From a virus: a stretch of DNA of 24,596 nucleotides. The DNA is taken from positions 1 through 24,596 of IMG/VR virus record IMGVR_UViG_3300025698_000053. The stretch is one strand, 5' to 3'. The notes under the pieces were generated by a model that saw only the letters and a list, made by a program, of their open reading frames with translations, ran no database searches and was not told the origin of the DNA. A program made the position numbers and the translations under genes. Positions 22,480-24,596 of the stretch are shown piece by piece (position 1 is the first letter of the stretch; the number at the start of each line of letters is the position of its first letter).

Positions 22480-23139
22480 ATGTCAATAAAAGAGAAAGTT
22501 AAACCAATAAAAGAATTATTTGTCGGTATGAGGGTAGAGAAGTTAATTATCCTAGAGATTATTCCTGGCTCGTACCCAAAAGGTCAAAAGCACATTACCG
22601 GTGGTCATAAAAATAAAACTGTTAGGTGTCTTTGTGATTGTGGTATTGAGAGCATTAAGTATTACGACTCCATTCGGTGGCACAAAACAAAGTCGTGCGG
22701 CTGCCTTAGTAAGGTGATTGGCCAAACTCACGGCATGCATAAGTCTACTGAGTATGGGTCTTGGGACGGCATGAAACGTCGGTGCTATAATAAAAATACC
22801 ACAGATTATATTCACTATGGCGCTCGTGGAATTACCATGTGTGAACGCTGGAAAAATAGCTTTGAAAGTTTTATAGAGGACGTAGGGCTAAAACCTACAC
22901 CCAGCCATACCCTCGACAGGATAGATAATAACGGAGATTACACTCCCTCCAATACAAGATGGGCAACCCGTAAAGAGCAGGCTAATAACAGAAGAGGTTT
23001 CAGGATAACCAAGAAAGACGCTATAGAGATACGCAGGTTAAAAGCGGTAAAGACCCCCAAAGAGCTGGCTGAAATGTTTATCATTTCACGCAGTTCAATT
23101 TATGGAATTATCAATAACCACACCTGGATGGACGCTTAA
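22480..23139 (+). CDS. HNH homing-type endonuclease (219 aa)
   Basis: A phage HNH endonuclease with a zinc-binding N-terminus (cysteines 50, 52, 54, 73, 75 in CLCDCG and KSCGCL), a conserved linker (EYGSWDGMKRRCYN, about 91-104; YGARGITMCERW, about 113-124), the nuclease core HTLDRIDNNGDYTPSNTRWA (143-162; H143 and the Asn residues), then a C-terminal helix-turn-helix-like segment (about 176-216) that would recognise target DNA. Such genes are mobile and often cut near their own insertion site in phage terminase or other late genes. It has GGAGA 6-7 nt before the ATG and a 1-base TAATG overlap with terL. Confidence 0.8.
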   Translation: MSIKEKVKPIKELFVGMRVEKLIILEIIPGSYPKGQKHITGGHKNKTVRCLCDCGIESIKYYDSIRWHKTKSCGCLSKVIGQTHGMHKSTEYGSWDGMKRRCYNKNTTDYIHYGARGITMCERWKNSFESFIEDVGLKPTPSHTLDRIDNNGDYTPSNTRWATRKEQANNRRGFRITKKDAIEIRRLKAVKTPKELAEMFIISRSSIYGIINNHTWMDA

Positions 23140-24446
23140 TGTTCATTTCCATACCTAGCATCAGGCCATACCCTCATCAGCATAGGATGTTCAAAGCCAT
23201 TATGGATGGTAAGAATGTTGTTGCAATTGTGCACAGAAGGGCCGGAAAAGATGTATTTTGTATAGAGGCGTGGCTACTCCGCGCCCTACAAAGAGTTGGT
23301 ACTCACGTTTATCTTCTCCCCCAGCAAAACCAAGCAAGGTCTGTGGTGTGGTCAGGAATGGATTATACCGGAAGACCTTTCATGTCGGCCATACCGGAGT
23401 GTTTAATAGAGTACAAAAATGAAGCAAGGATGGAGCTTAGGCTCATCAATGGGTCAAGACTTGTGCTAGGTGGTTCAAATAACTACGACTCTTTGATGGG
23501 CAGCAATCCGATTTCCATCATCTATTCTGAATTCGCCCTTCATCACCCCCTGGCGCGTCAATATTTAAATCCAATCCTTATTCAGAACGACGGCCTAGAA
23601 ATTATTCAAAGTACGCCCCGGTCCCGTAATCATCTATACGACGTCTACGAAGCCGTTAAGGATAACCCGAAATACCACATCGAGCACCTAAACGTAGAGG
23701 AGACATTCAATCACGAAGGAAGGCGCATCATCACTGAAGAGCACATTGACGCCGCACGAAAGATGGGGATGTCAGAAGAGATGGTCCGTCAAGAGTGGTA
23801 CGTCGACTTCGATGTGGGTAACGTGGGTAGTTATTTTACAAGAGAAATGTCCGATATGGATAAAGAGGGTCGAATACTTCCGGTTAAGCCAAATCGCAAT
23901 CTTCCTGTACATACTGTATGGGATTTGGGCGGCACAGACGCCACGGCTGGTTGGTTATTCCAGGTAGATGGAGAATATATTAACCTCATAGCCCTGCTTC
24001 ACGATACAGGTAAGGGCTTAAAGTTCTACTTAGAATGGGCTGAGCGACTTAGGCAGCAATGGGGGTGTCAATGGGGCACGCACTTCGGTCCATTTGATAT
24101 CACGCAATCTCACCAGTCCTGGGAGCAGGCTGAGTCCAGGCTTATGCTGGCGAGAAAAGCAGGCTGGCACTTTCAAGTCACGCCCAAACTTAGCATTGAA
24201 GACGGCATAGAAGCAATGCGCTACATATTCCCAAAACTTAGGGTTAACTCAGATGATTGCACCCTAGGTGTCAGGGCTATGCGTGAGTATAGACGAGAGT
24301 ACGATGATGTTAATGCGTGCTTCAAACCTAAGCCTCTGCATAACTGGTCGTCAAATATCATGGATGCTCTACGATACCTGGCTGTAAATTACCGCAGGCT
24401 TTATGACGTACCAAGCCCTGTTAGGACGTATGAGTATAAGGGGTAG
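23139..24446 (+). CDS. Terminase large subunit (435 aa)
   Basis: Motor and nuclease that cuts and packages the genome. ATPase motifs: Walker A HRRAGKD (32-38, ending in Asp rather than Thr/Ser), Walker B SIIYSEFA with E131, and the coupling motif STPRSRNH (158-165). Nuclease motifs: VWDLGG with D262, FGPFD with D320 and SNIMDALRYLA with D409, the three acidic residues of the RNase H-like fold. The length is short relative to T7 gp19 (586 aa) but usual for this family. Both halves are complete. ATG overlaps the HNH stop; no strong ribosome binding site of its own is seen, so translation probably depends on the HNH reading. Confidence 0.92.
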   Translation: MFISIPSIRPYPHQHRMFKAIMDGKNVVAIVHRRAGKDVFCIEAWLLRALQRVGTHVYLLPQQNQARSVVWSGMDYTGRPFMSAIPECLIEYKNEARMELRLINGSRLVLGGSNNYDSLMGSNPISIIYSEFALHHPLARQYLNPILIQNDGLEIIQSTPRSRNHLYDVYEAVKDNPKYHIEHLNVEETFNHEGRRIITEEHIDAARKMGMSEEMVRQEWYVDFDVGNVGSYFTREMSDMDKEGRILPVKPNRNLPVHTVWDLGGTDATAGWLFQVDGEYINLIALLHDTGKGLKFYLEWAERLRQQWGCQWGTHFGPFDITQSHQSWEQAESRLMLARKAGWHFQVTPKLSIEDGIEAMRYIFPKLRVNSDDCTLGVRAMREYRREYDDVNACFKPKPLHNWSSNIMDALRYLAVNYRRLYDVPSPVRTYEYKG

Positions 24447-24448
24447 TC

Positions 24449-24536
24449 GGGGCATGCTGGACTCGAACCAGCGACTTGACTATTCGGATGGCTGGCCATC
24501 CGCATCCGCCCCTCTAACCATCTGAGGTAATGCCCC
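24449..24536 (-). tRNA. tRNA-like element with non-canonical anticodon arm
   Basis: Read on the minus strand: acceptor GGGGCAT (24530-24536) pairs perfectly with ATGCCCC (24449-24455); positions 8-9 are TA; D-arm CCTC/GAGG encloses AGATGGTTA; T-arm GCTGG-TTCGAGT-CCAGC is perfect and fits TTCRANY. The 38 bases between D and T arms should hold 23. They form CGGATGG/CCATCCG with a four-base loop (24485-24502) and offer no seven-base loop with T33. No CCA is encoded; the base after the acceptor is G. It is either a decayed tRNA, a non-decoding tRNA mimic, or one with an unusual arm. A weak minus-strand promoter (TTTACA, 24590-24595; TATAAC, 24565-24570; 19-base spacer) lies upstream. It starts two bases after the terL stop. 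Confidence 0.55.
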
Positions 24537-24596
24537 ACCCAACAATACCACATCCTCCGACACTGTTATATTTTAAAAGCCTCGCGGTATGTAAAA

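Follow-up and report, generated by a model that had tools for sequence, protein, structure and literature searches.

The stretch of DNA analysed here (the window) is the whole of a linear viral contig of 24,596 bases. Ten of its proteins, part of its ORFs, were compared with PHROGs and gave head-tail adaptor, major head protein, tail, internal virion, HNH and terminase families, a set as in podoviruses; no integrase was found among these ten. An ORF at the left end (15-608) belongs to phrog_3108, of unknown function, and has no Pfam match. At the right end lie the gene for the terminase large subunit (23139..24446, plus strand) and, on the opposite strand, a gene for a tRNA-like RNA (24448..24536, minus strand, from G1 to the discriminator G73), delimited by ARAGORN, RF00005 and a forced-arm fold. 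The terminase stop codon is one base from the RNA gene. Only 60 nt separate the 5' end of the RNA from the contig end, so its upstream side is mostly unseen. A sequence-only reading had described a tRNA mimic at 24449-24536; that location stands, while the end moves to 24448 once the discriminator base is counted.

The RNA has the body of a canonical class I tRNA (RF00005), with which it shares the acceptor, the D and T arms and a variable loop of 5 nt. All features described here are on the minus strand. The acceptor strands GGGGCAT (24530..24536) and ATGCCCC (24449..24455) form 7/7 pairs, the D arm (24511..24527) has a stem CCTC/GAGG (4/4) and a loop AGATGGTTA with both A14 and G18G19, and the T arm GCTGG-TTCGAGT-CCAGC (24456..24472) pairs 5/5, so that both sequence and tools bear out the mimicry of stems and elbow bases proposed at the outset. 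ACT follows the discriminator G directly and no CCA is therefore encoded, again as described. The anticodon region (tRNA numbering 26 to 48; 24473..24510) is enlarged to 38 nt from the normal 23, the 15-base excess reported earlier, and folds with an MFE z of -2.2. With the canonical arms forced, three base pairs at its foot lead through an internal loop to a 7-bp hairpin capped by the 4-base loop CCAG (CGGATGG-CCAG-CCATCCG, 24485..24502), which takes the place of the anticodon loop; the free fold agrees, and a fold of 24446-24538 gave a z of -3.0, with 0/200 shuffles as stable. This hairpin and the tandem GCGGAT GCGGAT (24498..24509) had both been picked out from the letters and are indeed present. 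In contrast to a canonical class I tRNA, the window RNA has no 5-bp anticodon stem with a 7-nt loop and no reliable T33 or anticodon. In the strict frame its anticodon stem has 2/5 pairs, which, together with L160 and L176, is the weakest of the 23-member set described below. Shifted by one base, the stem has by eye 4/5 pairs and a G-A mismatch, and the frame reads ATGCGG, with T33 and purine 37 present.

ARAGORN calls the element tRNA-Arg(gcg) (24446-24537, minus strand), and the covariance-model check suggested by the sequence-only reading came out in favour of a tRNA, with RF00005 scoring 43.6 bits at 24448-24536 against a 29-bit cutoff (small stretch, evalue mode) as the best match of its clan. 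Both results are what an ordinary tRNA-Arg(gcg) would give. That reading is nonetheless hardly credible, as the anticodon stem in the ARAGORN frame comprises three Watson–Crick pairs, a terminal G-T and a G.G mismatch, the long variable region is nearly unpaired, and the stable fold buries two of the three anticodon bases in another helix. The loop in the ARAGORN frame, ATGCGGA, does contain T33, so the earlier statement that T33 is missing is true of the hairpin fold and depends on which fold is taken. A class II tRNA was rejected on the grounds that the variable region is almost unpaired and the extra hairpin sits inside the anticodon arm, and a tmRNA on the grounds that ARAGORN, which also seeks tmRNA, reports a tRNA alone and that RF00005 tops its clan. 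The suggestion of an attP-like remnant has so far found no support: both acceptor halves are present, and no integrase turned up among the ten proteins compared with PHROGs. On the opposite strand the single Rfam match, Plastid-ycf2, scored 18.8 bits, far below its cutoff of 65.7. A gathering scan of the whole window with Rfam overlooked the 43.6-bit tRNA, probably through its speed filters. The exact 25-mer of the insert was not found in other viral contigs. A search of named phages with the window stretch at E up to 1 matched 112 records; the best 20 of these 112 cover 16-18% of the query and lie within annotated tRNA genes.

A portal search yielded 72 related loci, 67 of which (L014-L080) have at least 49% identity in the best segment. 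ARAGORN reported tRNAs in four of the 72 (L068, L069, L070 and L073), of which the short 67-nt call in L073 has no Rfam support at that place. In the other three, a homologue of the window element, 95 nt long and the same to the letter in all of them, lies close to the left-end ORF, and in L069 it is downstream of that ORF on the same strand. Read by eye, it has a different hairpin, GTTCAG-CTAAGA-CTGAAC, in the same anticodon region, and the RNAs of the window and L069 are identical at 64/95 aligned positions. Among 50 whole records, comprising 48 of the 67 loci at or above 49% identity and two distant ones and including many fragments, a tRNA exceeded the cutoff in three, the contigs of L068-L070; of the relative loci with the left-end ORF, 39/55 extend at least 250 nt past its end. 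The best 40 of 438 terminase relatives in named phages reach a top identity of 38.6%, and for five of these named-phage relatives the stretches examined held no tRNA. The tRNA-like element is thus rare within the phage group of the window. The sequence-only reading had proposed that finding nothing conserved in this place would speak against a function, and this is half borne out, the three records just mentioned being the exception. Because of this rarity, local decay, in which a tRNA with a recent duplication or insert in its anticodon arm is drifting towards a pseudogene, stays a minority alternative. The weak anticodon stem of the window, the tandem GCGGAT copies and the missing CCA also fit decay, while the fully paired acceptor and T stem and the structured insert do not.

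Other features of the related contigs were seen in passing. Short pieces of the terminase 3' end are found inverted upstream of the portal gene in L014, L019, L024, L025, L027, L028, L030, L033, L034, L040, L044, L075 and L076, and in the comparisons of L079 with L086 and of L067 with L093. In some relatives, inverted copies of about 119-124 nt that are 100% identical flank the late module, which could be an inverted repeat or an assembly effect. The contigs L019, L024, L027, L031, L036, L039, L051, L058, L079 and L080 begin about 255-275 nt past the point where the left-end ORF is estimated to stop, which would suit a repeat or a physical end of the genome at that spot.

A wider family was gathered by pattern search. 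A general pattern, built from the letters of the D and T arms only with a gap exceeding class I tRNA length, matched 94 viral stretches, many of them tRNA-like with enlarged anticodon regions. Run on genomes as a control, it matched at least 119 stretches; 89 among the matches listed have a good tRNA body, and over half of 80 titles among the matches listed are Methanobrevibacter or other archaea, because this pattern picks up intron-bearing archaeal tRNAs. The search was then limited to the subset with the window's D stem, CCTC/GAGG. The stricter CCTC pattern, whose range includes normal length, had 12 matches among viral contigs, and genome_contigs, in which 84,980 species are represented by one genome apiece, yielded no match. 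Virus specificity rests on this pattern, the looser ones having covered viral contigs. After the looser patterns, and with a filter of at least 6/7 acceptor pairs and 5/5 T-stem pairs, the collection stood at 23 distinct enlarged elements, including that of the window, and 24 distinct normal-length ones. As the members were gathered with D-arm and T-arm patterns, the conservation of those arms is by construction. Acceptor pairing was absent from the search patterns, and of 34 distinct long-insert matches to the last pattern, 23 reach 6/7 acceptor pairs, compared with 24/1280 slid controls. Two relationships are apparent among members, one joining L160 and L176 and the other L178, L188 and L197.

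Eight long-insert matches (two in L367, two in L381, and one each in L376, L383, L384 and L385) were dropped because by eye they belong to another tRNA type, which has a long variable arm and an acceptor displaced by one base. Three more (L332, L345 and L358), with fewer than 6/7 acceptor pairs in register, were also dropped; they may be decayed or bulged members, and such poorly paired acceptors are what decay would leave. Another 37 enlarged phage tRNAs, whose D stem is not the CCTC one, were not counted as family: 18/37 have T33, 15/37 keep the anticodon stem, 19/37 are near other tRNAs and they show no promoter signal of the kind described below. Compared with named phages by BLAST, two of four family members had no match and the others matched two records each, covering 40% and 29% of the query on the T-arm side, in ordinary or fragmentary tRNA genes. 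ARAGORN labels the relatives tRNA-Phe, -Thr, -Gly, -Leu or tRNA-???, the near-identical L160 and L176 elements receive tRNA-Ser and tRNA-Pro, and those of L172, L178, L188 and L197 get no call. Such genes are easily overlooked or mislabelled, in the window as tRNA-Arg.

In the 23 enlarged members, selected by the filter on acceptor and T stem, 160/161 acceptor cells and 115/115 T-stem cells are paired. The acceptor has 4 to 6 pair types per position, and since its sequences vary widely yet stay paired, changes on one side have evidently been matched on the other. In the anticodon stem (27-31/39-43), 99/115 cells are paired, against 65 when slid by +1 and 44 when slid by -1. Against dinucleotide shuffles, the inserts have a mean MFE z of -2.49 over the 23 members (range -0.71 to -5.63), and the loops GCAA and UUCG occur in L123 and L161. 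Judged from these alignments and predicted folds, the family anticodon stem is mostly kept and covarying, and the loop is enlarged and structured. The marks of decoding are largely gone: T33 is present in 4/23 enlarged elements, against 20/24 normal-length CCTC tRNAs and 48/52 intron-type controls, and R37 in 11/23 against 20/24 and 49/52, the intron-type controls having been preselected for at least 4/5 anticodon-stem pairs. A slide of one base, in one direction or the other, does not bring T33 back in the enlarged family, where it is then seen in 6/23 each time. Base 73, the discriminator, may be G, A, C or T. These comparisons support the idea, first proposed for the window RNA by itself, that decoding has been lost selectively while elbow and acceptor were retained.

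These numbers also bear on the possibility that the extra bases are a short anticodon-loop intron, spliced out to leave a decoding tRNA. Archaeal intron-bearing pre-tRNAs resemble the phage family in keeping the anticodon stem around an enlarged loop, and the T33 and purine 37 of the shifted window frame raise this reading slightly. They differ, however, in retaining T33 and R37, which the phage family has mostly lost, and we consider an intron very improbable.

Comparison of related members with their flanks speaks to constraint. L160 and L176, on diverged contigs, share 81/82 bases of the RNA and 31/31 of the insert, against 54/150 upstream and 111/160 downstream, with 58% amino acid identity in the best terminase segment. 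A recent block transfer could contribute to this identity, but the adjoining downstream DNA matches worse, which argues for constraint on the RNA. Among L178, L188 and L197 the insert is identical at 44-45/48 positions and the acceptor at 7-11/14 yet fully paired, while the flanks are barely alignable. In the pairs L371/L375, L374/L379 and L068/L069 the RNAs do not differ at all, one flank differs little or not at all and the other matches less well; L138/L155, L185/L203 and L068/L070 are near-identical throughout and hence uninformative. The window element looks like one member of a phage tRNA-like RNA family, 22 other distinct elements having the same architecture. Since that architecture recurs, its stems covary and the RNA outlasts its flanks in some pairs, a non-decoding use is favoured over decay, although the conservation is that of other members and not of close kin of the window. 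For the family, decay thus becomes the less likely of the two, and we would hold out little prospect for it. The sequence-only reading had left decay and non-decoding use side by side, and it is comparison across the family that separates them.

Transcription of the tRNA-like RNA on its own is plausible at most. A weak candidate promoter, TTTACA-19 nt-TATAAC (24565..24595, minus strand), has its -10 element ending 28 nt before G1; a standard scan with 16-18 nt spacing found no promoter at the window RNA. Among the 15 members gathered first, sites of the sigma-70 type that end 20-36 nt before the RNA, a distance range chosen after looking at the data, score 7.83 on average against 6.49 in shuffles (0/300, z 6.2). 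The signal did not replicate in the eight members found later (6.88 vs 6.55, z 1.1, 51/300 shuffles reaching it) and is therefore kept as a hint only; all 23 members together give a z of 5.8, and normal-length tRNAs show none (6.15 vs 6.41 in shuffles). Within about 500 nt of available sequence, 19/23 enlarged elements have no other ARAGORN tRNA, against 12/24 normal-length ones.

Terminase or its family is found within about 4 kb of the element in the window, L123, L160, L185 and L339. Other neighbours include a helicase (L178, L188), HNH (L188), an endolysin (L161) and replication or exonuclease genes (L135, L172, L387), and no partner gene is shared by those neighbours that were searched, a subset of which several matched nothing. 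Some arrangements would suit a processing or end-protection signal, in which the tRNA fold is excised by RNase P and 3' enzymes and so makes or protects the ends of neighbouring phage mRNAs. The elements of L138 and L364 are followed on the same strand by a major capsid gene, at distances of 146 and 131 nt, respectively. That of L339 is in a run of one direction, with small ORFs, between a phrog_2472 protein (the family of the window terminase) and a portal-like protein, and L069, with its element after the left-end ORF, is a further case. Against this, the window element is antisense to terminase, orientations relative to neighbours are mixed elsewhere, and a processing signal has no obvious need for inserts conserved at 31/31 or 44-45/48. 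We think such a role rather unlikely; it would itself be a non-decoding function and overlaps with the main explanation.

That main explanation is that the window carries a phage gene that stands alone and encodes a tRNA-shaped RNA with no part in decoding. A functional non-decoding RNA of some kind is, on the sequence evidence, likely; that it comes from a stand-alone gene and acts most likely by its tRNA shape is probable, action through shape being suggested by a tRNA body without a usable anticodon loop. After transcription, alone or together with its neighbours, host RNase P and 3'-end enzymes would trim the RNA, a host enzyme would add CCA and a stable L would form. Acceptor, T arm and elbow are the parts of a tRNA read by RNase P, by the CCA-adding enzyme and by enzymes that modify the elbow, and the anatomy accordingly predicts recognition by enzymes of this kind without codon reading. 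As a mechanism, a decoy or sponge fits best: by its shape the RNA would occupy host factors that hold tRNAs on the acceptor-T-elbow side, for example defence enzymes or toxins attacking the tRNA tail, and the insert would be an element for binding or protection that is particular to each lineage.

The individual roles, whether decoy, scaffold or processing signal, are inferred. Given a functional non-decoding RNA, a decoy is a possibility that we would put somewhat short of even. Of the roles proposed by the sequence-only reading, a decoy for anticodon nucleases is the least natural, because the loop that those enzymes cut is missing, and a fixed aminoacyl sink is disfavoured, because the acceptor stem and discriminator vary between members. 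More tentatively, these genes may constitute a phage-specific family of non-coding RNAs with the tRNA fold as chassis. The constant acceptor-D-T side would titrate host enzymes that act on tRNA, including tail-attacking defence nucleases or toxins, and the exchangeable structured insert in the anticodon loop would bar decoding and supply a lineage-specific function.

The usual reading of phage tRNA genes is that they serve codon supply or replace host tRNAs that have been cut. Those that evade defences reportedly still decode, with changed loops, whereas in the window RNA the loop is gone. Phage tRNAs evading tRNA-targeting defences (PMC10264068) are similar in being phage tRNA bodies altered in the anticodon loop. 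The Bacillus cereus pseudo-tRNA tRNA-Other, which PMC3399842 reports as non-functional in translation and adjoining a pathogenicity island, is likewise a tRNA-like RNA outside translation; it keeps a Trp anticodon and may belong to a larger regulatory RNA, whereas the window RNA is from a phage and has no usable anticodon loop. Titles and abstract starts in the open-access literature, outside which most subscription papers fall, gave no description of such phage RNAs. Another non-decoding tRNA-like RNA with a poor anticodon arm is mascRNA, and the tRNA-like end of MALAT1 is a precedent for processing and end protection by a tRNA fold. According to PMC8128908, mascRNA is cut from MALAT1. It is mammalian and derived from a long RNA, while most of the phage RNAs come from solitary genes in intergenic positions, and some contain structured inserts that are conserved. 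If the phage family keeps a tRNA body without codon reading, phages also exploit the tRNA shape itself, and such RNAs would be a simple system in which to test enzymes and defences recognizing the acceptor and elbow and not the anticodon.

Other unusual tRNA-like genes were met during the searches. Some normal-length CCTC tRNAs (L360:776-830 and L366/L368) have as anticodon arm a long stem with a loop of 4 or 6 bases instead of 7. A second enlarged phage group (L130, L151, L165, L173, L174, L181, L182 and L184) has the acceptor TGACCCT/AGGGTCA or a close variant, long anticodon regions and other tRNAs nearby. Enlarged tRNA-like genes unlike the archaeal intron type are present in genome contigs L218 and L245 (Chryseobacterium titles) and L314, and L134, L157 and L187 hold phage tRNA-Ile(TAT)-like genes, the isotype being taken from the loop, with an added paired variable arm. 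The Vibrio phages vB_VpaP-MS02 and PhiImVa-1 (L329:1190-1790 and L330:1190-1790) contain an odd cluster of tRNA pieces. An insert motif resembling CAGCAA[AC]CCAAT recurs in it, and, by eye, a tRNA 3' half lies upstream of the matching 5' half, as in a permuted tRNA.
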